Below, piece after piece: positions 5,068 through 48,811 of a DNA stretch of 64,000 nt. Source of the DNA: Lachnospiraceae bacterium MD335. Lineage in GTDB: Bacteria > Bacillota > Clostridia > Lachnospirales > Lachnospiraceae. A program made the position numbers and the translations under genes. Every line of letters begins with the position of its first letter. Positions within the stretch are counted from its first letter, which is position 1. Below the pieces are notes generated by a model. It saw only the letters and a program-made list of their open reading frames with translations, made no database searches and was not told the DNA's origin. Location of the stretch: positions 363,714 to 427,713 of the forward strand of contig KE159630.1 in the NCBI GenBank assembly GCA_000403335.2, written 5' to 3'.

Positions 5068-5087
5068 ATTGTCATGGCCATAAGCCT

Positions 5088-5160: not shown

Positions 5161-5421
5161 GTGACGGCGAATAAAAGCCACCGCATCAGCAGGCGGATAG
5201 TTCCCTTACTCCGAACAGAGAACATATGTTAGATAAAAAAGCAAACGTGTGTTAGGACAAGAAAAGCACGTATTGATGCATAAATATACGGATATACACA
5301 AAATAACGCATAAATATGCATAATGACACTGTATAAAACACAATGAAACAAAAACGGCATGACAAGGAAAAAGTAAAAAACCCTGAAACCCGCATAAACA
5401 GGGCATTTTTGCATTCTCACG

Positions 5422-5461
5422 TTTAAGTATTCACGAAAGTTTAGTTTTGCGAATACTTAAA
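5422..5461. repeat. Inverted repeat upstream of integrase, possible regulatory or arm site
   Basis: TTTAAGTATTC (5422-5432) and GAATACTTAAA (5451-5461) are perfect 11-bp inverted arms. A second inverted pair, TTCACGAA (5430-5437) and TTCGTGAA (5463-5470), overlaps it. The site is 130 nt upstream of the integrase gene and could bind a regulator, the integrase arm-binding domain or the excisionase-like protein. Confidence 0.5.
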
Positions 5462-5594
5462 ATTCGTGAAAGGCAGAAACGACGACCTCCAACAGGTAAC
5501 GGTAACCGTAATAATAAGCAAATTTACAAGAACAAAAGAATAATGTACAATAATAAGTACCTTTTGTCATGCTTATACAGAAGGAGAATGAAAT

Positions 5595-25100: not shown

Positions 25101-25367
25101 ATTGTATAAAAAATTGTGACAGTGTAAATTCGTGAAAGCAAAAGCGTTACAATTTTAGAGTTTTGAAAGTGTTTTGCTTTTATTCTGTATTTTCTGCTGA
25201 ATCGATTCTGTAAAATCTGCAAGATACTAAGAATTAAAAGGATCTGCCTTAATCGGTAAATATAGTTTATAGATAATTATCCATAATTTTATTGAAGTAT
25301 ACCGGCATTTTAAAAATGTATGAATCCGTAAAACCAAGCATGAATGAAGATTAGATGTTTCGTAGAT
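25101..25367. other. Non-coding AT-rich stretch before the left inverted repeat
   Basis: No gene seen in this stretch, part of a ~400-nt gap. GC content drops sharply relative to the importer genes. It contains CATAATTTTAT (25282-25292), which recurs inverted near 26766-26776 beside the right inverted repeat. Confidence 0.4.
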
Positions 25368-25384
25368 TTCTCTAATCTGCGATA
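25368..25384. repeat. Left 17-bp inverted repeat (candidate recombination site)
   Basis: TTCTCTAATCTGCGATA, the exact reverse complement of 26801-26817. The two copies enclose the tyrosine recombinase gene. Confidence 0.75.
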
Positions 25385-25426: not shown

Positions 25427-26542
25427 TTAACCATAAATTTGACCATAAAATATTGAAAGCTTGTCAATGCATTGGCGTTTGGTATCCATAGACGGATGCA
25501 CATAACGGTTTAATGTAATCTGCACGTTAGAATGTCCCAACATCTCACTGAGACTTTTTACATCTGTTCCGCCTTCAATACAATTTGTGGCAAATGTATG
25601 ACGCAGAATATGAAAATTTGTATCAGGCAGTTTTGCATCCTGCAGTATTTTCTTAAAATGGTATTGCAATTTTCTTGGTTCCAGCGGACTGTCACCGCCA
25701 AATATATATTCATGGCTGCTTTTGAAGCTGCAAAGCAATTCAATTACTGTAGCTGACAATGGGATTTCTCGGCAAGAATACACACTTTTAGGCGTTGTTT
25801 CCATTAGTACAGTCTTCGTTGCGTACCCTTCAGCATAGAGACGCTGTACCGTTCTGTTAATTGTAAGTATTTTGCTTTCAAAATCAATATCAATCCATTT
25901 TAACGCACATAATTCACCTATTCTAAGTCCTGTAAACAGGCACAACAGCACTGCCATTTTAAAAAGGTTCATTTCCCGGTAAAGTGTCGCAACCAATTTC
26001 TTTTGTTCCATTTTGGCAAGCGCCTTCACATCGTTTTTCTGCGTATGGAAAACAGGCTTATTCAGACATGGAATCGTTATAAAATTCTGTTGGGAAGCAT
26101 ATTTTATGACTTGGTTTAATATACAGTAAATACTTTTGATGGTATTATCCGATATATGTTCTGAAATCTTTTCGCTTACAAGAATATTGGTAATTTCTGA
26201 CAACATAATATCTGAAAACTCTTTTTCAATGTGATTATGAAAAATCAAGCTGTATTTTACATATGTTGAAAGCTTTCTTTTCTCTTTAACCGCTATAAGC
26301 CATTCCCGCGCTACATATGTAAACAGAACATCGTTTTGGCTCCCCGTGCTTTGTACCCCTGTTTGGGAAATGTTAATTTTTAATGTATTTTTATGTATCA
26401 ACAATTTTTCACGCACTTCTTCATAGGTCTTTCCATAAACAGAGCAGTAAACCTGTTTTTTCTTGTTGGCATTATATACAGGATAACGCCCTTCCCATCT
26501 TCCGTCTTTTCTTTTTCTTATGTTTTCTCCATGTCTTGCCAT
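25427..26542 (-). CDS. Tyrosine recombinase (371 aa) inside inverted repeats
   Basis: Full-length phage-integrase-family enzyme: AP2-like N-terminus (about 1-50), SAM-like core-binding domain (about 75-150) and catalytic domain with R207, H311-x-x-R314, H337 and Y347. ATG 26542 follows AAAGGAAC. No other phage or conjugation gene is nearby, and perfect 17-bp inverted repeats flank the gene 43 nt beyond its stop and 259 nt upstream of its start. That arrangement fits an invertase that flips its own segment rather than a prophage integrase, but an orphan integrase left by a decayed element is also possible. Confidence 0.85.
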   Translation of the reverse strand: MARHGENIRKRKDGRWEGRYPVYNANKKKQVYCSVYGKTYEEVREKLLIHKNTLKINISQTGVQSTGSQNDVLFTYVAREWLIAVKEKRKLSTYVKYSLIFHNHIEKEFSDIMLSEITNILVSEKISEHISDNTIKSIYCILNQVIKYASQQNFITIPCLNKPVFHTQKNDVKALAKMEQKKLVATLYREMNLFKMAVLLCLFTGLRIGELCALKWIDIDFESKILTINRTVQRLYAEGYATKTVLMETTPKSVYSCREIPLSATVIELLCSFKSSHEYIFGGDSPLEPRKLQYHFKKILQDAKLPDTNFHILRHTFATNCIEGGTDVKSLSEMLGHSNVQITLNRYVHPSMDTKRQCIDKLSIFYGQIYG

Positions 26543-26727: not shown

Positions 26728-26756
26728 TTGCCATTTGGATTGAATCGTGGTAAACT
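26728..26756 (+). promoter_or_regulatory. Candidate outward promoter just inside the right inverted repeat
   Basis: TTGCCA (26728-26733), 17-nt spacer and TAAACT (26751-26756), the -10 preceded by TGG. It points out of the bracketed segment toward the TnpB-like gene. Inversion of the segment would move it to the other end. Confidence 0.45.
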
Positions 26757-26763
26757 AATACCG

Positions 26764-26836
26764 ATATAAAATTATGTAAGCATAGATTCAAAAATTTTCA
26801 TATCGCAGATTAGAGAATTCCACGATAATTTTATAT
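26764..26836. repeat. 12-bp inverted arms enclosing the right 17-mer
   Basis: ATATAAAATTAT (26764-26775) and ATAATTTTATAT (26825-26836) are exact inverted copies on either side of the 17-bp repeat. They may be recombinase arm sites or a cruciform. Confidence 0.55.
26801..26817. repeat. Right 17-bp inverted repeat (candidate recombination site)
   Basis: TATCGCAGATTAGAGAA, exact reverse complement of 25368-25384; 1.43 kb apart. Confidence 0.75.
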
Positions 26837-26904: not shown

Positions 26905-28272
26905 ATGGTGAAAGAGATGTCTGCAAGCAATACAATAACAAAAACCGTGTGGCAGTACAGTAAGACACTGCCGGAAGACACGATGGAGTTCCTAAAGGGA
27001 ATTGCCTTAGATTACAGCAAGGTAAAGAATTATACATACAACAGATATTCTGGTATTAAAAGTCTTGGCAGACTTACACCGGTATTTGACATTATGAGCG
27101 AGGTGCGTCACAGCGGAATCAGAACTCGGCTTGGACTGCCGTCAGCATATTTTGATCCGGCAATTATTGAAGCGGTAGCAGACATAAAAGGTATGTGGGG
27201 CATGCTGAAAAACAAGATCGGAACACTCATTACAGCAAACGAAAATCTAAGTGATGAGGACAGAGTTTATCTAAGGACGGTCTTAAAGCTTGATAAAATC
27301 TATGCCGCAGTGTTATGCCGCGAAAACTATGAAATGCCCAAGAAAGCAGAAGGTCTTGACCTTGATGTAGAGCGCCTGAATAACCTTTTGCGAAGATTAA
27401 CGCGGAAGCATTTGGCAAAACCGGAAACAGGCAGTATGGACTGTTTCAGTATCGCGCCGTCCGGTTATGCATACAGGAATGGTGCAATCTGCATTGCATC
27501 AAGGACAGCAGGGCAGAGAATACCGCTTCCATTAAAGGATGACCGCATCTGTGACCGGCAGATACGAATCTGTATCAAAAAGGACTATGCCGCTCTTGCG
27601 ATTCCGGTGGAAACAAAAATAAGAAAACACAAGGATTACGGCAGTACAGTTTATATCCATATAGGCTATCAGGACATGTTTACGCTTTCAAACGGAAATA
27701 TTTACGGACAATCGCTTGACGGCATGACCTCGCAGGAAACGCAGCGCCTGACAGATAAAAACAAGGGACGCGCAAAAATGCGTGCAGCATACAAACACAG
27801 CATGGAATCCGGTGATAGGGAAAAGGCAGGCAGCATCGAATCTAACAATCTTGGAACGGAGAAATATGACAGACGCAAGGAAAAAGAACGTGCGAAAACA
27901 CAGACGTTTATCAATACGGAAATTAACAGGATGTTTGCAGAAGAAAAGCCGGAGCGGATTGTAATAACGAAACCGGTGACAGTGGGCAAGACGAAACTTC
28001 AGTCAAAGTCGGCAAACAGAAAAATAACAAGAAATTTTAACGGATATGTCAGGGAGCGATTGTCCTTTAAATGCCAACTCCATTCCATTGAACTTGTGGA
28101 GATTAACTCTAAGGGAACAGGAGGCATTTGCTCCTGCTGCGGAGCAGAAGGAAAAAGACAGCCGGATGGTTTTTGGTGTCCGGATTGCGGATATAAAGCT
28201 ACAATTTCCCTAAACGGAGCAAAAAATATCGAAAAAAAATATAACACCAAAAAAGTAAGAGCGAAAAAATAA
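26905..28272 (+). CDS. TnpB-like protein with all RuvC catalytic residues replaced (455 aa)
   Basis: The C-terminal half aligns without gaps to TnpB. RuvC-I, normally (I)DLG, reads IHIGYQDMFTLSNG, with H252 for Asp. RuvC-II, normally VIED, reads IVITKPV, with T355 for Glu. The zinc ribbon is intact (C409-x-x-C412, C425-x-x-C428). RuvC-III, normally DRDVNAA, reads TISLNGA, with S435 for Asp. The helical N-terminal half (about 20-220) would be the RNA/DNA-binding lobe. So the protein should bind guide RNA and DNA but not cut, like the TldR repressors derived from TnpB. No TnpA is present. ATG 26905 is used; ATG 26917 is an alternative. Structured non-coding DNA follows. I infer the loss of activity from residues only. 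Confidence 0.8.
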   Translation: MVKEMSASNTITKTVWQYSKTLPEDTMEFLKGIALDYSKVKNYTYNRYSGIKSLGRLTPVFDIMSEVRHSGIRTRLGLPSAYFDPAIIEAVADIKGMWGMLKNKIGTLITANENLSDEDRVYLRTVLKLDKIYAAVLCRENYEMPKKAEGLDLDVERLNNLLRRLTRKHLAKPETGSMDCFSIAPSGYAYRNGAICIASRTAGQRIPLPLKDDRICDRQIRICIKKDYAALAIPVETKIRKHKDYGSTVYIHIGYQDMFTLSNGNIYGQSLDGMTSQETQRLTDKNKGRAKMRAAYKHSMESGDREKAGSIESNNLGTEKYDRRKEKERAKTQTFINTEINRMFAEEKPERIVITKPVTVGKTKLQSKSANRKITRNFNGYVRERLSFKCQLHSIELVEINSKGTGGICSCCGAEGKRQPDGFWCPDCGYKATISLNGAKNIEKKYNTKKVRAKK

Positions 28273-28695
28273 TATAAAAAATTGGTTAAACCATACAGAC
28301 CTGAGAATAAATCCCTTGTGACAGAGCTTGATACCAAATTTGTTGTGAGTGATTTTACCCGGTGTATTGTATCAACGGCATTCATTTCAATGCCGCTGAT
28401 ACAATACACCAATCAGGATCACAGGAAAGTATGTTAACAATATCGTAAACAGCGCAACAGCTGTTTACAAAGGCAAAAAACGGCATTATCTAAACCGCTT
28501 TTGACGGTTTTCCGGTATGCCAAGACCGCAGCCTTATGCGGAGCGAAGCAAAATCCAACAATGTTGGATTTGCAGGCGGAGACGCCCGGCTAATCCTTAT
28601 GATAAAAAATAAAGAAGTGTCCTGAGAAGCATTGGATAAAAAAATGTCAAGAGGGCGGCATTTTTTGATAATTTACGTATAACTGGGAGCAAGAG
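28273..28695. other. Hairpin-rich non-coding stretch after the TnpB-like gene
   Basis: No protein gene in 423 nt. It holds five hairpins (28361-28410, 28445-28468, 28526-28541, 28551-28571, 28575-28586) and the start region of the glycan locus. In TnpB/TldR systems the guide RNA is encoded exactly here. Confidence 0.6.
28361..28590 (+). ncRNA. Candidate guide (omega-like) RNA region
   Basis: The main hairpin joins GGTGTATTGTATCA (28361-28374) to TGATACAATACACC (28397-28410), continued by CGGCATT/AATGCCG after one mismatch: about 22 pairs with a 6-nt loop. Then come GTAAACAGC/GCTGTTTAC (28445-28453, 28460-28468), CCGCA/TGCGG, AAATCCAACA/TGTTGGATTT (28551-28560, 28562-28571) and GGCG/CGCC. Location on the coding strand just after the TnpB-like gene suggests its guide RNA; the guide itself would follow the last scaffold hairpin. 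The boundaries are guesses, and the first hairpin could simply be a terminator. Confidence 0.4.
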
Positions 28696-31116
28696 ATGAG
28701 AAAAGCGCAGAAGCAACAGGCAGAAGAACTGGTCAAACAGATAGAGGAAGCGCATGACCAAATAAGAATATATATGCAACAGGGCAGCATACAGTCTGCA
28801 ATGGAGCTCTTGGAGGATTGTCAAAATGGCGGAATTACCATAGGTACCTTGATTGAAGAAATAGAAGGTGAAGGTCATCCGACTGTACTGTTACTGGAAG
28901 AATACTGTGAGCTGATTTATCAGATTCATACAGATTTGGCAGAACATAAGGAAATCAGTGCAAATAAAGTGTACAAGCTGTTAAGGCAGAAGCTGATTAA
29001 GGCAGGAAACAGTTTAAGAAATGATATTCCAATCAGGAAAGAGATCGTTTTTCTTCCTTATAAAGCGAGCATGTGGGACAGCTTAGAAAGCGTGTGGAAG
29101 GCAGCAGATGCAGATCCAAACTGTGATGCGTATGTTATTCCAATACCATATTATGATAAAAATCCGGACGGGAGCTTTCGTAAGATGTATTATGAAGGGG
29201 ATCAGTATCCAGATTATATACCTGTTACAAAGTATGATGAATTTGACTTTGAGGTGCATCGTCCGGATGTGATTTATATTCATAACCCGTATGACGATTT
29301 CAATTTGGTAACAAGTGTGCCGCCGTTTTTCTTTTCGAAAAATTTGAAAAAGTATACGGATGAACTGGTATATATACCATATTTTATTTTAAGTGAAATC
29401 AAGCCGGACGAAGACGAAAAAATAGAAGGAATGAAACACTTTTGCACAACGCCGGGCGTATTTCATGCGGACAAGGTGATTGTGCAGTCAGAAGATATGA
29501 AGCAGGTATACATAAAAGTCCTTTTGGATGCTACGAATAACCACAGTGAGGCGGCTAGAAAGTATTGGAATGACAAGATTTTAGGGCTTGGCTCGCCGAA
29601 GCTTGATAAGGTTGTCAATACAAAAAAAGAAGATTTAGAAGTGCCGGAAGATTGGATGAATATTATACAAAAAACGGACGGAAGCTGGAAAAAGATTGTT
29701 TTTTATAATACAAGTGTAGGAGCGCTGTTACAGCATAATGAGAAGATGCTGGAAAAGATGCAGTATGTATTTGATGTTTTTAAAGAAAATCGTGAAGAGG
29801 TGGCTCTTTTGTGGCGTCCGCATCCGCTGATAAAAGCGACAGTAGAGAGTATGCGCCCGCAGCTTTTGTTCGAATATGACAGGCTTGTCAGAAAGTACCG
29901 GGAAGAAGGCTGGGGGATTTATGATGACAGCAGTGATATTGACAGGGCGATAGTGCTGAGTGATGCGTATTATGGGGATGGCAGCAGTGTGGTGCAGATG
30001 TATCAGAAGACGGGAAAACCGATTATGATTCAGAATCACCAAATTATCGTAAGCCAATGGAATGAAATTATTTTTGGTAAAGGAATGGTTATGGAAGGAA
30101 ATAATATATGGATTCCAATGGCAATGCTGAACGTATTGGTAAAGGTAAACCGAATAAATGGTCAGGTTGAAAAGTGTATTAAATGGAATAGAGAATATTT
30201 GGGAGAAAATAGAAAAAAATATTTGTTTACGGATATTGTACGTGTACGGGAATGCTTGTACTTATCACCGACTAATGCAGATACAATCATTGTCTATAAT
30301 ATAAAAAGCGATCTAATGTCACATATCAAAGTAGAAATTTCATCAAAATGTAGTAGGATTTTAGCTGTACATTCTCATTCAATTATGTGCGGGGAAGATA
30401 TTCTGTTTGTGGGAATGTGTAATACAAATATGATTGGAAAACTAAATTTAGATACTCAAAAAATCCAATATTTTGGGAAAACACAGAATGATAAATGTGA
30501 ACCTGTATATGGAAGAAATTCTATTGCAGTGGAAAATGAAGTGTATATTCCTTTATTATATGGTGGAAATGTTTTAATTTTGGATATAAAAAACAATTCG
30601 GAAAGAATTGAAAATATTGATAAAAAGAGAAGAAAACTTATTACAATTAGTGAATATAATCATTTTTTTTATTTTACGACAGAAGATGGACAGCTCATTG
30701 AAGTAAGCAGTGACTTAAAGGAAGTAAAGGAAATAAAATTGCCAGGCAATAAAATGTTTTTTACTTGTTTGTGTGAAGATGGTATCTTATGGCTTTTTCC
30801 TTATGATCCAAAAGGTTATGGTCTAAAAATAGAGTTGGATACATATTCCATTTCTAAATTTCAAGTACCCAAAATAGTATATAATGCACAAAGAGTATAC
30901 GGCAGTCAGAATATATTGCTAAATGCCAGGGGGTGTGCGATGGAGCTGGATGTTACAAATAGAATCAGCACAGTCAAATATCATCTAAATAATAACACAT
31001 GGAAAGAATTCATACAGATGTGTAATGGCAGAATACATGAAACTTATGAAGATGATCCATATGATTTAAGGTTTTATTTGGAAGAAATATTAGATTATCC
31101 ATATTGTGTAAATTAA
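28696..31116 (+). CDS. CDP-glycerol glycerophosphotransferase-like protein with C-terminal propeller-like domain (806 aa)
   Basis: The N-terminal ~110 residues are helical, likely coiled-coil. Residues about 115-460 resemble the TagF/CDP-glycerol transferase fold, with ALLWRPHPLI and the nucleotide-end motif DAYYGDGSSVVQMYQKTGKP. Such enzymes add polyol-phosphate units to wall or capsule polymers. The C-terminal ~330 residues have short beta repeats (about 50 residues each), propeller-like. GC content falls sharply at about 30,060, where the transferase part ends, so the gene looks mosaic. First gene of the glycan locus; no usual family name fits the whole protein. Confidence 0.65.
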   Translation: MRKAQKQQAEELVKQIEEAHDQIRIYMQQGSIQSAMELLEDCQNGGITIGTLIEEIEGEGHPTVLLLEEYCELIYQIHTDLAEHKEISANKVYKLLRQKLIKAGNSLRNDIPIRKEIVFLPYKASMWDSLESVWKAADADPNCDAYVIPIPYYDKNPDGSFRKMYYEGDQYPDYIPVTKYDEFDFEVHRPDVIYIHNPYDDFNLVTSVPPFFFSKNLKKYTDELVYIPYFILSEIKPDEDEKIEGMKHFCTTPGVFHADKVIVQSEDMKQVYIKVLLDATNNHSEAARKYWNDKILGLGSPKLDKVVNTKKEDLEVPEDWMNIIQKTDGSWKKIVFYNTSVGALLQHNEKMLEKMQYVFDVFKENREEVALLWRPHPLIKATVESMRPQLLFEYDRLVRKYREEGWGIYDDSSDIDRAIVLSDAYYGDGSSVVQMYQKTGKPIMIQNHQIIVSQWNEIIFGKGMVMEGNNIWIPMAMLNVLVKVNRINGQVEKCIKWNREYLGENRKKYLFTDIVRVRECLYLSPTNADTIIVYNIKSDLMSHIKVEISSKCSRILAVHSHSIMCGEDILFVGMCNTNMIGKLNLDTQKIQYFGKTQNDKCEPVYGRNSIAVENEVYIPLLYGGNVLILDIKNNSERIENIDKKRRKLITISEYNHFFYFTTEDGQLIEVSSDLKEVKEIKLPGNKMFFTCLCEDGILWLFPYDPKGYGLKIELDTYSISKFQVPKIVYNAQRVYGSQNILLNARGCAMELDVTNRISTVKYHLNNNTWKEFIQMCNGRIHETYEDDPYDLRFYLEEILDYPYCVN

Positions 31117-31160: not shown

Positions 31161-32279
31161 TTGAAAATCGGATTACTGACATATCATAGAGTAATAAATT
31201 ATGGAGCTTATATGCAGGCATACTCGTTGATGAAAGCTTTAGAAGGTATTACTCATAGTGAGATTGAGATTGAGGTAATAGATTATATATCACCGAATCA
31301 TATAAGGAGATATGGCACGATTCTGACAAAGGCTTTGTGTGAAAGGAATATAGAAAAACTTAAACAATTTTTAGCTTTTTTTAGGGCGCAAAAAAAATTA
31401 AAATTGTCCCGATTTAGAAGTTTTCATCCGAAATTTTTGGAAGATAAAATCGAAAAATCTAAATATGATGTGATTATAGTTGGAAGTGACGAAGTTTGGA
31501 GGGATTTTGAAAACGTATATTGGCTTAGAGTCGTTCACAATAGTAAAAAAATGGCATATGCAGTTTCTTCCCGAAACCTGAATTCAAAATTGAGGAGAGA
31601 ACAAATAAGATTTATAAGAGAAAATTTAAAGGAATTTGATTATATTGGGGTAAGGGATGAAATAACAAGGAATGAATTATATAAAGCTTATCAGACAGAA
31701 ATTAATATTAATTGTGATCCTGCATTTTTGGTAGATATTAAGTTTGATAGAAATAGTTTTAAAAATAAATTATATAAAAAATACCGAATACCTGACAAAA
31801 GCAGACTGGTAGGCATAATGTTGGATGAACGAGCAGATGTATGTAAAAAGATAAAAGAGATATATGGAGATGAGTATAAATTAGTTTCCCTATATTCAGA
31901 GAACAAAAAAGCGGATTATAACTTAATAGATATATCACCGTTTGAGTGGGTAGAAGTAATAGGAATTTTAGATTGTTTGATTACAAGTTATTTCCACGGT
32001 GTTGTTTACGCTATAAAAAGTAATATCAATTTTGTGGCAATTGATTATGCGCCAAAAGAAACAAGCAAAATATATGATTTGCTGTCACGGGAAAATTTAT
32101 TGGACCAATATATAAATGCTTATAAAGTTCAGGAGTGGGCACAATGTAAAAGCCTTCATGGAATTTTAGAGCTTTCGCAAGGAATGAAATACGATTATTC
32201 TTCGGTAGTATGTAATCAAAAAAATGCTTTTTGGTCTTTTAGAAAGAAATTATTAACAATTTTGAATGAGAATAGATAG
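31161..32279 (+). CDS. Polysaccharide pyruvyl transferase family protein (372 aa)
   Basis: CsaB/WcaK-type fold: start KIGLLTYHRVINYGAYMQAY, middle FDYIGVRDEITRNEL and CDPAFLVD, late ITSYFHGVVYAIKSNINFVA. Family members transfer pyruvate from PEP to sugars of surface polymers. TTG 31161 is the start, with AGAGAGGG upstream. The 3' end overlaps the ORF of the next gene, an Fe-S protein that often accompanies this family. Confidence 0.8.
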   Translation: MKIGLLTYHRVINYGAYMQAYSLMKALEGITHSEIEIEVIDYISPNHIRRYGTILTKALCERNIEKLKQFLAFFRAQKKLKLSRFRSFHPKFLEDKIEKSKYDVIIVGSDEVWRDFENVYWLRVVHNSKKMAYAVSSRNLNSKLRREQIRFIRENLKEFDYIGVRDEITRNELYKAYQTEININCDPAFLVDIKFDRNSFKNKLYKKYRIPDKSRLVGIMLDERADVCKKIKEIYGDEYKLVSLYSENKKADYNLIDISPFEWVEVIGILDCLITSYFHGVVYAIKSNINFVAIDYAPKETSKIYDLLSRENLLDQYINAYKVQEWAQCKSLHGILELSQGMKYDYSSVVCNQKNAFWSFRKKLLTILNENR

Positions 32280-32289
32280 GGTGGATAAA

Positions 32290-33378
32290 ATGTTACCTGG
32301 TGAGAATGTTTGTACGGGTTGTGGTGCATGTAAAAATATTTGTCCAGTGAATGCAATTAAGATGTGTACAAATTTTGAGGGTTTTTTATACCCTGGGATA
32401 CAGGATGAAAAGTGTATACACTGTAAGCGGTGTGAGCATGTATGCCCAATTAAAAAAAATATAGAAAATGATGAGTATGAGGAATATTTTGCAGTACAAG
32501 CCAAGACTGATGAAAAAGAAAGTACTTCGGGAGGTATATTTGCAATAATTGCAAAATATGTTCTTTCTCAAGGTGGAATTGTATTTGGTGCAGCATTTGA
32601 TAAAAATTATAAAGTTATTCATAAATATATCGCCAAGGAAGAGCAACTATATCAACTGCAAGGGTCAAAATATGTACAAAGTGAAATCAAATATACATTT
32701 AGGCAGGCAAAGAATTTTTTGGATAAAGGGAAAATGGTTTTGTTTTCCGGAACGCCTTGTCAAATAGCCGGATTAAGAAAGTATTTATCAGTAACCTATG
32801 AAAACTTAATTTGTGTTGACCTAATTTGTCATGGAGTGCCTGCACCTAAAATATGGAAAATGTACTTAAGGACTTTTCATAAAAACAAAAATATTAAAAG
32901 TATCAGATTCAGAGATAATAAATACATGAAAGAAAAGGTTTTCAGTATTCAGTATGGTGATTCAAAACGGTACGTAAAAGAGTATCCCAATGATCCATAT
33001 ATATGGGGATTTTGTTATGACTTGTTTTTAAGAAAGTCTTGTTATAATTGCATGTTTAAAGGTGTGGTAAGCTATTCGGATCTTACGTTGGGCGATGCGT
33101 GGGGAGCTGAAAATTATGCAAAATCTCTATATCGCAGAAAAAAAAGAACTTCTGTTGTTATATTACGTGGGGAAAAAGGAGTACAGATTTTTGATCAAAT
33201 TTCAAATAATATAGAATATCAGAAGGTTGATAAAAGTCAAGTGATAAAATATAATCCTTGCATCGTAAGTTCGGTTTCTTGCAATAAGGAACGGGAAAAT
33301 TTTTTTGAGGAGTTAAAAAAGCATTGTTTTCGATATGTTTTAAAAAAATACTATTATAAAGGAGTTATAAATAAATAG
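32290..33378 (+). CDS. Ferredoxin / F420 hydrogenase beta-subunit-like protein (362 aa)
   Basis: Two 4Fe-4S motifs at the N-terminus (CTGCGACKNICP and CIHCKRCEHVCP) are followed by the FrhB/FdhB-type domain with ESTSGGIFAIIAKYVL, FSGTPCQIAGLRKY and LICHGVPAPKIWKMY. In polysaccharide loci such proteins sit next to pyruvyl transferases; their reaction there is not established. ATG 32290 has GGGTGG upstream; ATG 32266 overlaps the previous gene. Confidence 0.8.
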   Translation: MLPGENVCTGCGACKNICPVNAIKMCTNFEGFLYPGIQDEKCIHCKRCEHVCPIKKNIENDEYEEYFAVQAKTDEKESTSGGIFAIIAKYVLSQGGIVFGAAFDKNYKVIHKYIAKEEQLYQLQGSKYVQSEIKYTFRQAKNFLDKGKMVLFSGTPCQIAGLRKYLSVTYENLICVDLICHGVPAPKIWKMYLRTFHKNKNIKSIRFRDNKYMKEKVFSIQYGDSKRYVKEYPNDPYIWGFCYDLFLRKSCYNCMFKGVVSYSDLTLGDAWGAENYAKSLYRRKKRTSVVILRGEKGVQIFDQISNNIEYQKVDKSQVIKYNPCIVSSVSCNKERENFFEELKKHCFRYVLKKYYYKGVINK

Positions 33379-33383
33379 TTAGA

Positions 33384-34910
33384 ATGAGAAGTTTAAATAA
33401 ATTTTTACAACTTAATAAAGAAGGGATTAATACATTTGAAACGGATGCACAGGGGTGCATATATATTCCGGAGGAAATAACTGTAGAGAATATCTTTTCA
33501 GATATTGTGAGATATATTACCGCAAAAGCAATTTCTGATAAAGCAAAAATTAGAGTTGTGAGATTAGTCAATGGAGATGACAGTAAAGAAAAACGGAAAA
33601 TATCAGATTCATTCGGATTTAATACAATAAATGTAAGAATAAAAGGTATAAGGGGAATACTTAATCAAATAAAAGCCTGTGTTAAAACAACGTTGTTATT
33701 CTTTGGTTGTAAAACTGGAGAAGCGTTATTGCAGTATAGAATCGGAAAAATTCCAATTGGACAATATATTTATGACAAAATAATAAGGGAGCAGGAAAGA
33801 AATACAATTGATACGATAAGTATTTTGCAAGATTTTAAAAATATTTATGAAGGAATATATTTATATTATAATTTAAAAAATATTTATCGGGATCAAGCGC
33901 CCAAATTTATTATAATGAATGAAATGGCGTATTTTTTAAATATTTATAGGGTATTGGGTCAGCAAAAAGGGGCTAAAGTTATTCGGGCATCTGTGCTGCT
34001 AAGGCAGGAAGATAGTAATGACATGTATGGTTTTATACATGAATCTTATAGATATATGGCGACCGGCAAGTTAAATGTAGCTAATCAGATGGATTATAAT
34101 ACCTATGTTTTGGAGTATTTTAAAAGGTACTTGCAAGGGGAAAGTGAATTATCATGGATAAAAAGTATTGTGGCTGATCAAAAGAAAACGGAATTCAATG
34201 AAGCGATTAATAGTATGCAGCTTGATGCGCATAAGAAAACTGTTTTTATTATGGCGCATTCTTTGTCAGATGCTCCGCATTCCAGCTCTAAAATGCTTTT
34301 TAGAGATTACTATACAGCTTTGAGAGAAACAATTAAAATAGCATCACGGATTGATAATGTTAATTGGGTTTTAAAAGTGCATCCGTCATATAAAAGTTAT
34401 TTGGGAACAAATGGAAGAGAGCTTATAGATTGTTATGGCAAAAAAAATATAGTTCTTTTTGATGAACGATATAGTAACGAAATTGTATTCAAATTAGCAG
34501 ATGCTATTATAACGGTTCAAGGTACGATAGGTATAGAGGCTAGTTCATTAGGAATACCAGTTGTTGTGACTGGAAAAGCATGGTATACAGGATTTGGATT
34601 TACAATTAATGCATTTTCTATGGAGCGATATGAAAAGATTTTGAGTGGACTCTATAAAGTGAAAAGGTTATCAAATGAAAAAAGAGATATAGCAAGAAAA
34701 GTCTTTTGTGCTTATTTGTTAGGGTACAGTGAAAGTAAAATTGATAAAGATAAATTGGGGAAAACTATTTTTGATATTATTTCAGATAAAAGTATAAAAA
34801 ATAAAAATGAAACCACTTTGCAAAAGTTGTGTGAATATATGGAGAGCAAAAGTATAGAAAATAGTTACATATATCAAAGAAGTTTGGATTTCGTAAAAAA
34901 GAATAATTAG
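33384..34910 (+). CDS. Capsule-polysaccharide-transferase-like protein (508 aa)
   Basis: The C-terminal part contains NWVLKVHPSYKSYLG and then LADAIITVQGTIGIEASSLG followed by IPVVVTG, the pattern of capsule synthesis (KpsS/LipB-like) and CDP-glycerol transferase folds. The N-terminal ~180 residues are unfamiliar. Very AT-rich. ATG 33384 has no good ribosome site; it lies 5 nt after the previous stop and may be translated by coupling. Probably a cytosolic transferase acting on a lipid-linked glycan. Confidence 0.55.
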   Translation: MRSLNKFLQLNKEGINTFETDAQGCIYIPEEITVENIFSDIVRYITAKAISDKAKIRVVRLVNGDDSKEKRKISDSFGFNTINVRIKGIRGILNQIKACVKTTLLFFGCKTGEALLQYRIGKIPIGQYIYDKIIREQERNTIDTISILQDFKNIYEGIYLYYNLKNIYRDQAPKFIIMNEMAYFLNIYRVLGQQKGAKVIRASVLLRQEDSNDMYGFIHESYRYMATGKLNVANQMDYNTYVLEYFKRYLQGESELSWIKSIVADQKKTEFNEAINSMQLDAHKKTVFIMAHSLSDAPHSSSKMLFRDYYTALRETIKIASRIDNVNWVLKVHPSYKSYLGTNGRELIDCYGKKNIVLFDERYSNEIVFKLADAIITVQGTIGIEASSLGIPVVVTGKAWYTGFGFTINAFSMERYEKILSGLYKVKRLSNEKRDIARKVFCAYLLGYSESKIDKDKLGKTIFDIISDKSIKNKNETTLQKLCEYMESKSIENSYIYQRSLDFVKKNN

Positions 34911-34958
34911 ATTAATAAATAAGGCATCCGTGTGATATGGAAAGGAATAAAGTTAGCA

Positions 34959-36590
34959 ATGAATGTAAGAAATGTAATGTATATTTTTAATGACGTAATA
35001 TTAGGGGGAGCAGGACATTCATTAATTGATACTATTACTAAAATCAAAGATTGTGTGAATCCGATCATTGTAATACGTGATGATGCAGAGGTAGAAGATC
35101 AGTTTATGGCGTTAAATATACAATATTATAAATTACATTTTACTACGGATTTTGTTGAAATAGGAAACAGAAATAAAAACATGGAAAAACAAAATTTTAT
35201 TTCGGACTATGAAGCAGCTGTTCAGTTGCTTCAGATAATAGAAGAGGAAAAAGTGCAGTTAATACATATCAATTCTAGTGTGAGCAACATCGGAGCTATG
35301 GCAGCATTGATGGCACATATACCATATGTTTGGCACATCCGGGAATTGATGGAAGAACAATTTGGATGCGAATTTCTGAATGAAGAGTTAAAATGCAATT
35401 TATATGCGCGTGCATATAAATTGATATCAATATCTGATTACGTTAAACAGAAGTATTTAGAGAGGTATCATATACATACCTTGAGAATATATGATGGCTT
35501 AAGTGTTGAAAAATATAAATTAAAAGTAACTAAGGATACGGATTATCAAAATGTATTTTTAGTTGTGGCAATGATATCTCACGAAAAAGGACAATGGGAT
35601 GCGATTTGTGCTACAGAAATTTTGATAAAAGCGGGGTATTCAGATGTTCAGCTGATAGTTGTCGGCGATGGCAATGACGGTTATATATGGGCATTAAAAA
35701 AATATATATCAATGAAAAAACTTGATAGAAATATTTTTATCCTGCCTTATCAGAATGATTTGTCAAAGCTGAATAAGAAAGCATCTTATGCAATAACTTG
35801 TTCTCAAAACGAAGCGCTTGGAAGGGTAACAATAGAAGCCATGCTTGCAGGTAATGTAGTAATAGGGGCTAGAAGCGGTGGGACAGTTGAAATTATTGGC
35901 GAAAATGAAGAACGAGGATTTTTGTATGAACTGCATAATAGTAAAGACCTTGCAAATACAATGATAAGAGCGATGAACTGCCCTAAAGAAATTAAAAATC
36001 AAATGATAGAAAGCGCTCAGATATATGCAGAAAAAGCTTTTGATGCAATGAGGTATTGTAAGACATTAATAGAGGTATATAATGAGGCAATATCGTCTTT
36101 TGAGGCAGATAATAAGGATGTTTTTTTGAATGAACTGAAAAAATACTATATTGAATTAAAAAATGAAAAATTGTGCGAAAAACAAAGTGCTATTAATACT
36201 CAATATTTAAAATTGGAGACGGCGTTTTCTCTAGCCATAAAATGGTTGGAAATTAAACAGAAAGGTTATAATCTTAGTGAATATTTTAGAAAAAATGATA
36301 TTCAAACGATAGCAATTTATGGCATGTCGTATTTGGGATGTAGATTATATGACGAATTGGAAAATGGGGATATTGAAGTTAGATACCTTTTGGATAGAAA
36401 ACCGAATAAGATGGATTCAATACTTGAGTTTGGTTCTTTGGATGGAGAAAAATTATTGATTGATGCGATTGTGGTTACAGTGGCTTTAACAGAAAAGCAA
36501 GTAATTAATGAAATAAAGCAAAAAGGTTATCAAAAGGTGGTCGGATTAAGTGAAGTCTTAGATAGTTTTATGATACCGCCATATAATTAA
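34959..36590 (+). CDS. GT4 glycosyltransferase fused to Rossmann-like module (543 aa)
   Basis: Residues about 1-370 are a GT-B glycosyltransferase: GGAGHSLIDT at the acceptor side, FLVVAMISHEKGQWDAICA, and the donor-site motif NEALGRVTIEAMLAGNVVIG with RSGGTVEII. The last ~110 residues are a separate module (IQTIAIYGMSYLGCRLYDEL ... DAIVVTVALTEKQV) also found in seven other proteins of the locus. ATG 34959 follows GGAAAGGAA; a GTG at 34932 is possible. Transfers an unknown sugar. Confidence 0.8.
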   Translation: MNVRNVMYIFNDVILGGAGHSLIDTITKIKDCVNPIIVIRDDAEVEDQFMALNIQYYKLHFTTDFVEIGNRNKNMEKQNFISDYEAAVQLLQIIEEEKVQLIHINSSVSNIGAMAALMAHIPYVWHIRELMEEQFGCEFLNEELKCNLYARAYKLISISDYVKQKYLERYHIHTLRIYDGLSVEKYKLKVTKDTDYQNVFLVVAMISHEKGQWDAICATEILIKAGYSDVQLIVVGDGNDGYIWALKKYISMKKLDRNIFILPYQNDLSKLNKKASYAITCSQNEALGRVTIEAMLAGNVVIGARSGGTVEIIGENEERGFLYELHNSKDLANTMIRAMNCPKEIKNQMIESAQIYAEKAFDAMRYCKTLIEVYNEAISSFEADNKDVFLNELKKYYIELKNEKLCEKQSAINTQYLKLETAFSLAIKWLEIKQKGYNLSEYFRKNDIQTIAIYGMSYLGCRLYDELENGDIEVRYLLDRKPNKMDSILEFGSLDGEKLLIDAIVVTVALTEKQVINEIKQKGYQKVVGLSEVLDSFMIPPYN

Positions 36591-36662
36591 TCGGCTGACA
36601 GATTTACATGGTATATTTTGCTTGTGTCTAAATCCACAGGCAGTACAAGAAAGGAAGATCTT

Positions 36663-37139
36663 ATGAAAAAAAGTATTATATCGATATTATCAGCATTTAC
36701 AGGAGCAGCGATTGGAGCAGGTGTAGTTAAAAAGACTATAGGGGAGACTGTTAACGAATCGAAAGCTATGTCGAACAAACACTTAGCGCTTTTTTTGCTG
36801 ATGAACCAGTGGGTAAAAGTAAAGCAGGAACGTAAGAATGTTGCTGATTACCTGAAAAAGGAAGGGTATAATAAAATTGCTGTATATGGGATGAGTTATG
36901 TAGGAGAAACATTATTAAATGAATTGAAAAATACCGAGGTTGATGTGGCTTATGGTATTGATAAAAATGCAGCGAGAATTTATTCGGATGTGGATGTATA
37001 TTCTGTGGAAGATGATCTAAAGCAAGTAGATGCAGTGATTGTGACAGCGATTACTTTTTATGATGAAGTAGTGAAAGTATTGCAGAAAAAACTAGATTGT
37101 CCGATTATGTCTATAGAAGATATTCTATATGAAATTTAG
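36663..37139 (+). CDS. Stand-alone Rossmann-like module with hydrophobic N-terminus (158 aa)
   Basis: Residues about 65-158 (NKIAVYGMSYVGETLLNELK ... VDAVIVTAITFYDEV) equal the C-terminal module of the neighbouring GT4, PIG-L and WbsX-like proteins. The N-terminus SIISILSAFTGAAIGAGVVK is hydrophobic and glycine-rich, perhaps membrane-associated. ATG 36663 has AAGGAAG 5 nt upstream. The fold suggests a nucleotide or cofactor pocket; no catalytic motif is seen. Confidence 0.65.
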   Translation: MKKSIISILSAFTGAAIGAGVVKKTIGETVNESKAMSNKHLALFLLMNQWVKVKQERKNVADYLKKEGYNKIAVYGMSYVGETLLNELKNTEVDVAYGIDKNAARIYSDVDVYSVEDDLKQVDAVIVTAITFYDEVVKVLQKKLDCPIMSIEDILYEI

Positions 37140-37210
37140 CAGTGACACACTAAGTTTGCAAAATGCTTCATTTGGGGAAATCGTTAAATGTAGAAAGCAG
37201 AGTGATTATA

Positions 37211-38056
37211 ATGGTAGTTGTTCGGATATGGGAGGGGCTTGGAAATCAATTATTTCAATATGCATATGCAAGAGCCTTATCTTTAAGAACTAAGGATAGG
37301 GTTTATTTGGATATATCAGAATATGAAATGAGTCCCAAACCTGTTCGGAAATATGAACTATGTCATTTTAAAATTAAGCAACCGGTAATTAATTGTGGAA
37401 GGATATTTCCATTTGTTAATAAAGACAGTTTCTATACAAAAAATAATCAATACTTAAGGTATTTTCCGGCAGGACTGATAAAGGAAGAAGATTGCTATTT
37501 TAAGAGAGATTTTTGTGAACTGAAGGGATTATTGTATTTAAAAGGATGGTTTCAAAGCGAAAAATATTTTAAAGAGTTTGAATCACATATAAGAGAGGAA
37601 ATATATCCTAGAAATAAAATTAAGATAACACGGGGGCTTAGAAAAATTTTAAATAGTGATAATACAGTATCGGTACATATTCGGAGGGGAGACTTTGGAA
37701 AGGATCACAATATTTTGCCAATTGAATATTATGAAAATTCGAAGCGGGTTATTCTTGAACGAGTAGATAACCCATATTTCATAATTTTTTCGGATGATAT
37801 TTTGTGGGTAAAGGAAAACATGAATTTTGGATTAAATTGTTTTTACATGGACAAAGAGTATTCTTATAAAGATTATGAAGAACTAATGATTATGAGTCGA
37901 TGTAAACATAATATTATAGCAAACAGCACTTTTAGCTGGTGGGGAGCATGGCTTAATCCCAGTAAAGACAAGATAGTTATAGCGCCTAAGAAATGGTTTT
38001 TGTACAATCCCAAAAAAGATTTTGATATTGTTCCTAATGACTGGATAAGGGTATAA
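37211..38056 (+). CDS. GT11 alpha-1,2-fucosyltransferase-like (281 aa)
   Basis: The start VVRIWEGLGNQLFQYAYARA and the donor-binding motif VSVHIRRGDFG are diagnostic of GT11. NSTFSWWGAWLN near the end is the third conserved motif. These enzymes transfer fucose from GDP-fucose to galactose-type acceptors. No GDP-fucose synthesis genes are in the window. ATG 37211 is chosen because the GT11 fold begins there; its ribosome site is weak. Confidence 0.88.
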   Translation: MVVVRIWEGLGNQLFQYAYARALSLRTKDRVYLDISEYEMSPKPVRKYELCHFKIKQPVINCGRIFPFVNKDSFYTKNNQYLRYFPAGLIKEEDCYFKRDFCELKGLLYLKGWFQSEKYFKEFESHIREEIYPRNKIKITRGLRKILNSDNTVSVHIRRGDFGKDHNILPIEYYENSKRVILERVDNPYFIIFSDDILWVKENMNFGLNCFYMDKEYSYKDYEELMIMSRCKHNIIANSTFSWWGAWLNPSKDKIVIAPKKWFLYNPKKDFDIVPNDWIRV

Positions 38057-38108
38057 AACTGATACATAGATGAAATGATGATTTAAAAGAGCAACAAAGG
38101 GAAAAGAA

Positions 38109-39107
38109 ATGCAGAATATACCAATAGATTTAATTATTCCTTGGGTTGATGGAAATGATCCGGCATGGCGGATCGAAAAAAGTAAATATGACAAAACCAA
38201 TGCAGTTTCAGATGTTCGTTATGAATCATGGGATAATCTTCAATATGTTTTCCGTGGTATTGAAAAGTATATGCCTTGGGTTCATAAAATATTCTTCATC
38301 ACATGGGGACATTTACCGGACTGGCTCAATACTGATTATGAAAAACTAAGGGTAGTAAAACATAGCGATTATATTCCGAGCCAATACCTGCCTACTTTTA
38401 ATTCTAATGTTATTGAAATGAATTATTTCCGCATCGAAGATTTAAGCGAAAATTATATTCTTTTCAATGATGATTTGTTTCCGATTCAGCCGATTCCCCA
38501 AGAATATTATTTTCGGAATAATCTTCCCTGTGAGGAGGCGGTTGAAACACATTTCGTATTAGAAGGCGATACGGAGCCGGAGCGGCAGATGATTTATGCC
38601 TGCGTCAATAATATGGTTATTATCAACCGGAATTTTGATAAGCAAAGAGTAGTGAATGAAAATAGGGAAAAGTGGTTTTCTCCGGTATATGGAAACCGCC
38701 TGCAGCAAAACATCAATTTGCAGTTTTGGCATCATTTTGAATCCTTTGTGTATCCGCATGAAGCGATGCCGATGAAGAAATCCGTATTAAAAGAGATATG
38801 GGAAAAAGAACCGCAAATGCTGGATATTGCATCTCAAAATAAATTTCGTGCACATTCTGACGTAACGCAGCGGTTGATTACGATGTGGCAGATTTGTTCG
38901 GGAAACTTTATTCCGCATAAGTATGAAGGCAGGATGTTTATAATAGATCAGTATAATTATATGGATGCAGCAGAAGCAATTAGGAATCGTGCATATCCGA
39001 TTATTAGTTTAAACGAAAGAAGCACGGAAAAGTTTGACGAAATTAAAAATGCGATTAGAAAGGCACTAGATGAGGTTTTACCCGATAAATCTTTCTTTGA
39101 GTTATAA
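38109..39107 (+). CDS. Stealth-family sugar-phosphate transferase (332 aa)
   Basis: Conserved regions of Stealth proteins: CR1 IDLIIPWVDGNDPAWRIEKS, CR2 RYESWDNLQYVFRGIEKYMP followed by FNDDLFP, and CR3/CR4 AHSDVTQRLITMWQ. These proteins transfer hexose-1-phosphate (often GlcNAc-1-P) to make phosphodiester-linked capsule chains. ATG 38109 has AAGGGAAAAG upstream. Together with the CDP-polyol genes it points to a phosphate-containing glycan. Confidence 0.9.
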   Translation: MQNIPIDLIIPWVDGNDPAWRIEKSKYDKTNAVSDVRYESWDNLQYVFRGIEKYMPWVHKIFFITWGHLPDWLNTDYEKLRVVKHSDYIPSQYLPTFNSNVIEMNYFRIEDLSENYILFNDDLFPIQPIPQEYYFRNNLPCEEAVETHFVLEGDTEPERQMIYACVNNMVIINRNFDKQRVVNENREKWFSPVYGNRLQQNINLQFWHHFESFVYPHEAMPMKKSVLKEIWEKEPQMLDIASQNKFRAHSDVTQRLITMWQICSGNFIPHKYEGRMFIIDQYNYMDAAEAIRNRAYPIISLNERSTEKFDEIKNAIRKALDEVLPDKSFFEL

Positions 39108-39119
39108 AGGAGTAATATT

Positions 39120-40172
39120 TTGCAGATATTGGAAATTTTCCCGAGAGATAAAATTTTAATAATTGCCCCACATCCTGATGATGAGTGCATCGGTCCAGGG
39201 GGCATACTCTGCCTTTATCCAAGTCAATGTAGTGTTTTGGTGATTTCTGATGGCAGGGAAGGGATAGGGGATATACTTCCTGAAATCGGAAAAGAAATTA
39301 GAAAGGCAGAATTTATTGAAGAAATGCGTCTCCTTGGGATTAGTGACTATCGGATGCTTGAGTATAAAGACGGTACATTATTACAGCATACAGATTGTCT
39401 GCAAGACATTGACTTATCAGTATACACTAAAATTTTTGTGACAGGAAACCATGACAATCATCCTGATCATACAGCAGCGTACATTAGTTTGTGCCAGGCA
39501 TTTCATAAACAGCAAATAAGGAATGTGGAAATTTATCTATATGAAATACATGCTCCGTTGCGTAATGCAACGCATCTGCTTGATATTACAAGTGTCATTG
39601 ATAAAAAACAACAATTGATAAGTTTTCATCAATCTCAAAATAAGAGGATGCCATATGACAGGTATGCGAGATGTATGGCAGAGTACAGAGCATTACAGAA
39701 CAGAATGCCGGAGCAATACATTGAGGTTTATACGCTTGCATCATTAGACGACAAGTCAGTTGGCGATGCAGCAGAATTGGAAAACAGATTACAGAAAAGT
39801 GATTTGTTTTATTTAGTTCTTACACGTTGGGTGGAATTTAAAATCAATGGGCATCATCTTGCTGAAATTCTTGCAGAGAAGGGATATTACAAAATTGCAG
39901 TATATGGCTATGCAGAATTAGGAAAATTGTTTTGCCAGGAACTTTTGTATACTAAGATAAATGTGATATATGTCTTGGATAAGAAGGTAAAGCAGATAAG
40001 GGAAAATAATCTACCGGTATATGTGCCCCAAAAAGGATTGCCTAAGGTAGATGCGGTGATTGTAACAGCTGTTTATTATTTTGATGATATAAAGGATGCA
40101 TTATCAGAAATGGGATTTGAAAATGTTATTTCCCTTAGGACACTCTTTGAAAATAATGATTTAGGAAGTTGA
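39120..40172 (+). CDS. PIG-L family deacetylase fused to Rossmann-like module (350 aa)
   Basis: The N-terminal domain has the zinc motif APHPDDECIGPGG and the second motif NHDNHPDHTA of GlcNAc deacetylases (PIG-L/LmbE). Residues about 235-350 carry the shared module (YKIAVYGYAELGKLFCQELL ... VDAVIVTAVYYFDD). Start is TTG 39120 with AAGGAG 9 nt upstream. Likely removes an acetyl group from an amino sugar of the polymer or its precursor. Confidence 0.85.
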   Translation: MQILEIFPRDKILIIAPHPDDECIGPGGILCLYPSQCSVLVISDGREGIGDILPEIGKEIRKAEFIEEMRLLGISDYRMLEYKDGTLLQHTDCLQDIDLSVYTKIFVTGNHDNHPDHTAAYISLCQAFHKQQIRNVEIYLYEIHAPLRNATHLLDITSVIDKKQQLISFHQSQNKRMPYDRYARCMAEYRALQNRMPEQYIEVYTLASLDDKSVGDAAELENRLQKSDLFYLVLTRWVEFKINGHHLAEILAEKGYYKIAVYGYAELGKLFCQELLYTKINVIYVLDKKVKQIRENNLPVYVPQKGLPKVDAVIVTAVYYFDDIKDALSEMGFENVISLRTLFENNDLGS

Positions 40173-40175
40173 AAA

Positions 40176-41264
40176 ATGAAAGATATTATTATATTTGGAA
40201 CTGGAAAATACTTTGAAAGTAAGAAGGAAACGTTAGAGCGAAAATATCATATTACTGCATTTTTAGATAATAAGATTGGAATCAATGAACATACAGGATA
40301 TCAGGGTACAGAGATACCCATGATGAATCCGGAAGCAGTCAATCAAGGGGATACAACAGAAATTTTTCTGATGTCTATTTCTTTTGTCAGTATGTGGAAG
40401 CAGCTTTGCAGTATTGGCGTGGATCCGCACCGCCTTGTATTTCCATATATGGAGGAGCCCTATTTTGAAAGCGAAGATGCGCTTTGTTGTTGTTTGGAAA
40501 AAATCATATTTTCTGAGGAGTATTTTGAATGCTTTTGCAGAGACGGAAGTATCATACGTATAACAGACGAGAAGGACTGGCGTGCATTCCTAAGGAAAGC
40601 ATACAGACAGAGATATCCGTTAATCCAGGCGGTTGCAGATATGGAAACAGAGCCTGTAAGCACGCGGTTTGGAACAGAAAGAGGAACACCGATAGACCGT
40701 TTTTACATCAATTGTTTTCTTCAAAAAAACGAAAAGTTTATACAAGGTGATGTTTTGGAAATAGAAGATAACATGTATACGAGACGGTTTGGAGGAATGA
40801 AAGTAAACAACTCAATTGTAATGGATGTAAGCAGTACAGGCAATGGCATTACATTCCAAGGCAATTTGGAAACGGGAGAAGGAATTAGAGATGGAATTGC
40901 GGACTGCTTTATTCTGACACAAACGCTCATGTATATTTTTGATTTGAAAAGTGCTGCGCATAATATTTGCCGTCTGCTGAAAAAAGACGGTAAGGCTTTC
41001 ATTACCTGCTCTGGTATTTCACAAAATTCAATGCGCTGTATGGATCATTATGGATGTTATTTTAACTTTAATCAGGATGCACTGATACGGATATTTGAAG
41101 ACGAAGAAGAACTTCGCATAATTGATAGTGGGAGCTATGGGAATGTTAAGACGGTTACGGCACACCTAAATGGGTTATGCTGTGAAGACTTAAAGGAATC
41201 AGATTTTGAAGCGAATGATAAATATTATCCGCTAATTGTATATGTAGTGGTGGAGAGACAATGA
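40176..41264 (+). CDS. Rossmann-like module fused to methyltransferase-like domain (362 aa)
   Basis: N-terminus DIIIFGTGKYFESKKETLER is the shared module. The second half (about 185-362) resembles a class I methyltransferase of Methyltransf_11 type, with a degraded first loop (VLEIEDNMYTRRFGG), ADCFILTQTLMYIFDLKSAA and LLKKDGKAFITCSG. Loss of the usual GxGxG makes SAM binding uncertain. Its stop overlaps the next start (ATGA). Confidence 0.6.
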   Translation: MKDIIIFGTGKYFESKKETLERKYHITAFLDNKIGINEHTGYQGTEIPMMNPEAVNQGDTTEIFLMSISFVSMWKQLCSIGVDPHRLVFPYMEEPYFESEDALCCCLEKIIFSEEYFECFCRDGSIIRITDEKDWRAFLRKAYRQRYPLIQAVADMETEPVSTRFGTERGTPIDRFYINCFLQKNEKFIQGDVLEIEDNMYTRRFGGMKVNNSIVMDVSSTGNGITFQGNLETGEGIRDGIADCFILTQTLMYIFDLKSAAHNICRLLKKDGKAFITCSGISQNSMRCMDHYGCYFNFNQDALIRIFEDEEELRIIDSGSYGNVKTVTAHLNGLCCEDLKESDFEANDKYYPLIVYVVVERQ

Positions 41265-42823: not shown

Positions 42824-42834
42824 AGGAGAAGGAA

Positions 42835-45254: not shown

Positions 45255-45271
45255 TAACGGGGTTGGGATAA

Positions 45272-47362: not shown

Positions 47363-47381
47363 AGGGTAGGAGTAGCTATTT

Positions 47382-48050: not shown

Positions 48051-48083
48051 AATGATTTGAAGCAGAACAGGAGTGTGCGGTAA

Positions 48084-48800: not shown

Positions 48801-48811
48801 AGGAGCAGCAT

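Follow-up and report, generated by a model that had tools for sequence, protein, structure and literature searches.

In the flagellin-associated clade of TldR proteins, a nuclease-dead TnpB is encoded with a guide RNA 3' of its gene and an alternative isoform alongside, and the resident host flagellin is silenced while the locus's own isoform is made; guides down to 6 nt, with a 6-nt seed, are reported to reduce motility (PMC13418256). According to the same 2026 paper, csrA-tldR flagellin loci in the gut bacteria Oscillibacter and Flavonifractor have hin serine invertases and promoter inversions of ~120 bp on their upstream side, with several loci per genome and predicted cross-targeting guides (PMC13418256). 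Dead Cas12m (type V-M) lowers transcription by binding without cutting, in promoters and also in coding regions (PMC11013384).

The locus described here lies in a window of 64,000 nt (the whole stretch of DNA that was analyzed) from Lachnospiraceae bacterium MD335 (GCA_000403335.2, KE159630.1:363,714–427,713, forward strand). As in the flagellin clade, a dead TnpB-like protein is accompanied by a 3'-encoded guide RNA and an adjoining alternative version of a gene whose resident counterpart would be silenced. Here, however, the cargo is a surface-glycan operon, the operon's own gene is predicted to be exempt through synonymous and flanking changes, the target lies ~590 nt inside the rival gene at motif codons rather than in a promoter, and a promoter cassette with a tyrosine recombinase would switch the unit. 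The csrA-TldR loci also have a recombinase gene and a promoter inversion upstream, but theirs is a hin serine invertase with a short inversion and flagellin targets (PMC13418256), whereas here a tyrosine recombinase is carried inside a 1.4-kb inverting cassette and the targets are glycan genes. The first-pass annotation had held this pairing to differ from the described TldR settings. The recombinase is more than an unusual partner here, as it sits in a promoter cassette that would invert and switch the entire unit. Nor is the company of a recombinase wholly new for a TldR: the hin invertases beside csrA-tldR loci are a parallel. Cas12m is a CRISPR effector with a guide array, whereas each locus here has one guide. 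IS200/IS605 TnpB with its omegaRNA (ISDra2, 8h1j) differs in that the present protein has no RuvC acids and its RNA has no Rfam match at the gathering cut-off.

Capsule phase variation in Bacteroides offers a further comparison, in which UpxZ is a protein acting on UpxY antiterminators. By description, both systems have invertible promoters at several loci for surface polysaccharides and encode a factor that turns rivals off, but here the rival gene would be addressed by way of a guide RNA. Literature searches, covering at most the first 20 titles and abstracts, with most subscription papers and bioRxiv outside their reach, showed no description of a dead TnpB paired with a recombinase and a glycan locus. 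As far as these searches go, the glycan cargo, the protein-motif codon target, the own-gene exemption, and the recombinase within the switch are new.

We consider it very likely that surface-glycan loci exclude one another through this unit, a phase-variable switch guided by RNA. In our best reading, with TldRs compared by description, the TnpB-like protein would be a TldR-like, guide-RNA-dependent repressor that silences a rival glycan locus and exempts its own. It appears that gut bacteria possess a relative of CRISPR enzymes with a dead nuclease which, once a flippable switch in the DNA has activated one surface-sugar gene cluster, would use a short guide RNA to silence a rival cluster and spare its own.

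Results

A TnpB-like protein without RuvC acids precedes a surface-glycan operon

The features of the locus are as follows.

25360..25384, unstranded: recombination site at the left of the cassette, a 25-nt inverted repeat with 92% complementarity to 26801–26825
25427..26542, minus strand: tyrosine recombinase, 371 aa, inside the cassette (Pfam Phage_integrase, E 6e-28)
26728..26756, plus strand: predicted outward promoter of the cassette, toward the TnpB-like gene (TTGCCA-N17-TAAACT; script scan)
26801..26825, unstranded: right inverted repeat of the invertible cassette, pairing with 25360–25384
26905..28272, plus strand: nuclease-dead TnpB-like protein, 455 aa (full-length open reading frame)
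28479..28590, plus strand: predicted guide-RNA scaffold with helices P1, P2, P3, P4, and P6 and pseudoknot helix P7 (covariance model, pair counts)
28591..28606, plus strand: predicted guide TAATCCTTATGATAAA, directly 3' of the P7 strand in alignment A2
28696..31116, plus strand: first glycan gene of the own operon, the putatively exempt "self" family member (weak match to PF04464 Glyphos_transf)
29283..29298, plus strand: own-gene site homologous to the target, TAACCCGTATGACGAT, at the HNPYD motif
31161..49858, plus strand: rest of the putatively switched surface-glycan operon (open reading frames; Pfam for six genes)

The match of the first glycan gene to PF04464 scored 22.6 bits, barely over the cut-off of 22.1. 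The genes that follow encode a pyruvyl transferase, Capsule_synth, GT11, a Stealth phosphotransferase, an IspD/TarI-like cytidylyltransferase, an alcohol dehydrogenase, and others; their spacing and strand suggest that they form one transcript.

The TnpB-like gene had been annotated as carrying H252, T355, and S435 in place of the RuvC residues D, E, and D, with an intact zinc ribbon, in a full-length frame without nuclease chemistry, and each of these points was borne out. The frame is open throughout, none of 103 TnpB-like loci carries a catalytic acid at any of the three columns, and the zinc ribbon is retained in 102 of the 102 loci with data. The D-E-D triad of the active IS605 TnpB nuclease is absent from the window's protein and from the relatives examined, making acid loss a property of the clade and not of one copy. 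The 103 loci include at least two duplicates, and L097 and L128 were left out of later counts as such. Two structural comparisons, Foldseek and VIA-align, matched the model to TnpB over nearly its entire length, and the C-terminal part matches the TnpB profile; comparison with one active TnpB (L394) was weak (0.3 bits, hhalign probability 1%). No TnpA-like gene was recognized by eye among the listed open reading frames.

A pattern scan of one-per-species genomes found 293 relatives, mostly in Lachnospiraceae, of which 80 were fetched and examined. In the first locus set, 19 of 20 loci had full-length open frames, with 31–55% identity and invariant columns. L049 (G196:C3), in which a TGA interrupts the gene ahead of the zinc ribbon and the RNA is still there, was left out of alignment A1 (20 of 21 sequences used); it could supply guides in trans or be decaying. 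The protein also occurs in metagenome bins named outside Lachnospiraceae (L094, Chitinispirillia; L095, Oscillospiraceae), where the RNA is reduced and its pseudoknot is ACCCG/CGGGT.

The promoter cassette occurs in both orientations among relatives

Upstream of the TnpB-like gene, 25-nt inverted repeats at 25360 and 26801 flank the recombinase gene and an outward promoter, and relatives have sites of the type TTCGCAGA...TCTGCGAA at the same place. A recombinase homologue lies upstream in 32 of the 103 loci, codirectional with the TnpB-like gene in 27 and divergent in five, the window included; where the sequence extends more than 1.7 kb upstream (75 loci), it is present in 26. Promoters were called by a script scan as the best sigma70-like match in the last 230 nt at each cassette end. 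In cassettes with repeats found, and with L067, L126, and two duplicates omitted from the table, the promoter points toward the TnpB-like gene in five of five divergent cassettes and away from it in 22 of 22 codirectional ones. The recombinase is divergent in the window, with its promoter at 26728, which corresponds to the ON orientation. Judged from its sequence, the cassette is a phase switch that is ON in the window and has two orientations among relatives; inversion in living cells is deduced from the orientations seen in different species.

Other loci have cassettes of 300–400 bp with the same sites and no recombinase, or cassettes of 100–140 bp with CCAAAAAGTATAC-type sites, and in both kinds the promoter points either way. 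Short CCAAAAAGTATAC-like cassettes without an upstream recombinase homologue were seen at L033, L037, L042, L071, L074, and L090 and further at L100, L109, L110, L125, and L132; these would need an enzyme acting in trans. Some TnpB-like loci have no recognizable switch. At L126, a 159-nt inverted repeat between −322 and −68 of the TnpB start holds a second copy of the 5' end of the TnpB-like gene, and inversion there might exchange gene starts.

A covarying, pseudoknotted RNA lies 3' of the gene

Between the TnpB-like gene and the glycan operon sits a structured RNA of omegaRNA-like topology, preceded by a less well delimited conserved stretch between the TnpB-like stop codon and 28478. A sequence profile (E < 0.01) found the RNA in 85 of 103 loci, always 3' of the gene and on the same strand, with no match elsewhere within the loci. 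By eye it was present in most of the other 18; none was seen in L044 or L075, and the sequence of L099 ends too soon.

Pairing was assessed in alignment A2, which holds 28 of the 43 group A RNAs located and omits 15. Standard pairs made up 94.1% of cells, compared with 34–42% when the structure was slid along the alignment; two-sided changes numbered 114 versus 36.8 after shuffling; and the covariation score was 0.457 versus 0.203 shuffled and at most 0.121 slid. Pseudoknot helix P7, which crosses P1, was 90% paired, with two-sided changes in four of its five pairs (variants include CCGG/CCGG, CGGG/CCCG, CGCG/CGCG, and GCTTG/CAAGC). The 3' end of the RNA comes directly after P7, and in omegaRNAs the guide likewise directly follows the pseudoknot.

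The covariance model scored 132.1 bits over 28479–28606, the window being one of its 28 sequences. A scan of the window's own genome (G000, ~5 Mb) gave this one copy of note (132 bits). The place ranked second, at 15.3 bits (E 1.4), was not significant, and it ends exactly at the unlinked target site described below. In Rfam, neither the window's RNA nor those of five relatives had a match at the gathering cut-off.

The guide matches motif codons in a paralogue elsewhere in the genome

The guide TAATCCTTATGATAAA (28591–28606) reads (ca)T-AAT-CCT-TAT-GAT-AA, the codons for H-N-P-Y-D-N/K, and HNPYD is the motif of the glycan gene that adjoins many TnpB-like loci. Two genes of this genome belong to the family at E < 0.001. 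In the unlinked paralogue, the site at G000:C1:833529–833544 (TAATCCTTATGATAAT) is identical to the guide at 15 of 16 positions, the last base alone differing. The site in the own operon (TAACCCGTATGACGAT) is identical at only 11 of 16 and is preceded by TTCA instead of TACA. The unlinked target is found 587 nt into the gene that opens another glycan operon, at G000:C1:832.9 kb onward, which continues with cytidylyltransferase and LicD genes. With at most one mismatch, the guide occurs at four places in the 5 Mb besides itself, and the target is one of them. With at most three mismatches, the 16-mer has 179 places in its own genome against 100 for a reversed control, so such loose matches mean nothing. 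The guide has mRNA sense and can therefore pair with the template DNA strand, not with the transcript of the target gene.

The covarying RNA and a guide with a genomic target support the earlier claim of a TldR-like regulator. The companion claim, that the downstream surface-glycan locus is the natural target, found no support: with five mismatches in 16 and TTCA in place of TACA, that site would be exempt, and the best target is instead the distant paralogue that stands first in a different glycan operon.

Another candidate, a 20-nt guide that begins with GATAAAAAATAAAG at 28601, within the present guide but ten bases downstream of its start, had also been considered, and no target was found for it. 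Local matches averaged 6.69 over 80 loci versus 6.28 over 474 controls with guides from other loci, no clear excess, with one further own-genome match at up to three mismatches; it was dropped because the conserved tail further 5' matched coding sequence.

The promoter of the default target gene (L345:9614–9942, G000:C1), read by eye as TTGTCA-N17-TAGAAT followed by CGATATA, is of the same type as the invertible ones. At L079, L081–L088, and L091, the HNPYD gene is located not downstream of the TnpB-like gene but ~2 kb before it, and at L046 and L048 no glycan gene was evident by eye just downstream.

Synonymous sites match the guide in unlinked genes

In 22 further genomes, 72 members of the targeted family were listed and 70 were read, to which the window's own two were added; in the within-genome guide comparison, five of 48 TnpB-like loci were without a recognized guide. 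Over the inner 14 nt in 23 genomes, the best non-self match beat the self match for 29 of 32 group A guides, with one worse and two tied. This count takes the minimum of several genes and so favors non-self, and codons were tested instead.

All 72 genes entered the codon test without selection, four linked genes dropping out for lack of the motif. In the 26 unlinked genes, 97 of 104 target codons for H, N, Y, and D are NNT, versus 1058/1488 elsewhere in these genes (p = 8.1e-8). The 42 linked genes with the motif gave 117/167 at the target versus 1832/2601 elsewhere (p = 0.93). Genomes lacking the protein gave 38/47 versus 1072/1371 (p = 0.86), four of their 16 genes having no motif. The remaining two-fold columns that are conserved in the 26 unlinked genes gave 373/519 (p = 6.6e-7). 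A narrower set of one default gene per genome (22 genes, picked partly after the sites had been seen) gave 88/88 versus 914/1280 (p = 7.6e-13), and its sole further column at 100% was the target's next codon. That set omits four unlinked genes, and its linked counterpart omits 14 linked genes. Of the omitted unlinked genes, G402:C2, G414:C135, and G412:C33 break the lock and G415:C422 fits it; some of the four are on short contigs, where a TnpB-like neighbor could be missing from the assembly.

The flank follows the same division: TACA stands 5' of the match in 20 of 22 default genes, 21 of 26 unlinked genes, 14 of 42 linked genes, and three of 12 genes in genomes without the protein. ATA makes up 126 of the 480 other Ile codons in the unlinked genes. 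Guides also differed less from the default gene of their own genome than under permutation (1.43 versus 1.64 mismatches, p = 0.0155, G412 left out), and in G406 and G413, where the targets encode HNAYD, the guides carry GC, matching the genes. As far as codon counts can tell, the synonymous sites of the unlinked gene are locked to the guide, and the linked genes drift, as in the genomes without the protein.

Several observations do not fit. Three of the 26 unlinked genes break the codon lock. Among 35 group A guides, 10 disagree with the default gene at position 5, which would fall within a 6-nt seed, and 22 at position 7. In G399, G402, and G416, and in one of the two G403 guides, GC stands in the guide but CC in the default gene.

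Discussion

The mechanism that we propose begins with the tyrosine recombinase, which would invert the 1.4-kb cassette holding its own gene and the outward promoter. The ON transcript would encode the dead TnpB-like protein, the 3' structured RNA, and the glycan operon together, and the protein would associate with the RNA scaffold in the manner of TnpB with omegaRNA. The guide, matching the non-template strand at the HNPYDN codons, would pair with the template DNA strand, and the complex would bind the rival ("default") operon ~590 nt into its first gene, block RNA polymerase, and silence that operon. The own operon's copy would escape because the match is disrupted by synonymous changes and by a 5' motif altered from TACA to TTCA or TCCA. 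What we infer is that the unit is transcribed, that the complex forms and binds DNA, and that the rival operon is repressed; the cassette, the lost acids, the RNA structure, and the guide-target match with its codon pattern are read directly from the genomes.

Long glycan operons often rely on antitermination, and RfaH, UpxY, and EAR RNA are models for regulation of the leader type. The protein might likewise bind RNA in the nascent leader of its own operon, as an antiterminator or a translation regulator, with no DNA guide. The position of the RNA would suit this, directly 3' of the TnpB-like gene and in several loci 20–60 nt ahead of the next start codon, as would its occurrence nowhere else in the loci at E < 0.01 and once in the window's genome. 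A leader would leave unexplained, however, why the 3' end of the RNA equals the coding motif of a gene family, and why the synonymous sites and TACA are locked in the unlinked gene while the linked gene drifts; the scaffold, a pseudoknot followed by a variable 3' end, is also that of an omegaRNA. We regard a leader function as unlikely.

The guide could instead be aimed at the HNPYD gene of its own operon and limit the operon's own expression. The neighboring operon does open with a gene of the targeted family in the window and in many loci, and one guide, at L063, matches its own gene at 14 of 14 inner positions (G400:C1). Over the inner 14 nt, however, mismatches to self average 3.28 (n = 32), more than the 2.49 to non-self (n = 84), and the linked genes have neither a synonymous lock nor, in 28 of 42, the TACA flank. 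Own guides match own genes no better than they match the genes of other loci: the values were 4.44 of 16 (n = 39) versus 4.02 (n = 3129) in group A and 3.79 of 12 (n = 28) versus 3.84 (n = 3440) in group B, where the test counts L096, a group A member, under group B. Targeting in cis was rejected as the main reading, and autorepression seems highly improbable.

Dead Cas12m can protect its host by binding (PMC11013384), and a dead RNA-guided effector might act against phages or plasmids. That the present protein does so is very hard to credit: the guides show conservation, and what they match is a glycan gene on the chromosome; scans of viral contigs found no locus with the single protein as query and two with the family alignment, and no CRISPR repeat or guide array, such as would stand beside a CRISPR-Cas12f gene, occurs in the window between 25000 and 29000. 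A decayed transposon gene without function, which the lost RuvC acids and the interrupted copy at L049 might suggest, can practically be dismissed given the open frames and invariant columns at 31–55% identity and the covarying RNA.

Exclusion between glycan loci, our preferred reading, can be taken one step further. We think it reasonably probable that each phase-variable glycan cassette has a dead TnpB and a guide at motif codons, and that genomes with several cassettes form a cross-silencing network in which one glycan is displayed. With guides aimed at the codons of a conserved motif, rival loci would escape only by synonymous change, and changes of just this kind are found in the cassette's own copy. 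This is a candidate mechanism, with its parts located to the base, by which Gram-positive gut commensals might keep one of several surface glycans displayed. If true, the reach of RNA-guided gene regulation would grow beyond flagellin to include surface glycans that vary by phase, chiefly in Lachnospiraceae, and the system would be a natural case of self/non-self discrimination by synonymous codons, in which the guide reads a protein motif and silent changes spare the own gene. With predictions made for guide, target, and switch alike, the idea lends itself to direct testing.

In most relatives of group B the tail of the RNA reads ATRCCTTATTT or GTRCCTTATTT, resembling I-P-Y-F codons, which occur ~30 residues beyond HNPYD in the same gene family. 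In a within-genome comparison that covered 21 of 22 genomes, group B showed no mean difference between self and default: mismatches of 12 averaged 3.31 for self (n = 16), 3.11 for genes linked to another cassette (n = 9), and 3.41 for default genes (n = 34). In a single group B case, the guide of L117 matches G423:C55 at 15 of 16 positions. Elsewhere in the window, at 2809–6824, a replication-initiator-like open reading frame and a second tyrosine integrase (5595–6824), both named by eye, look like an integrated mobile element.
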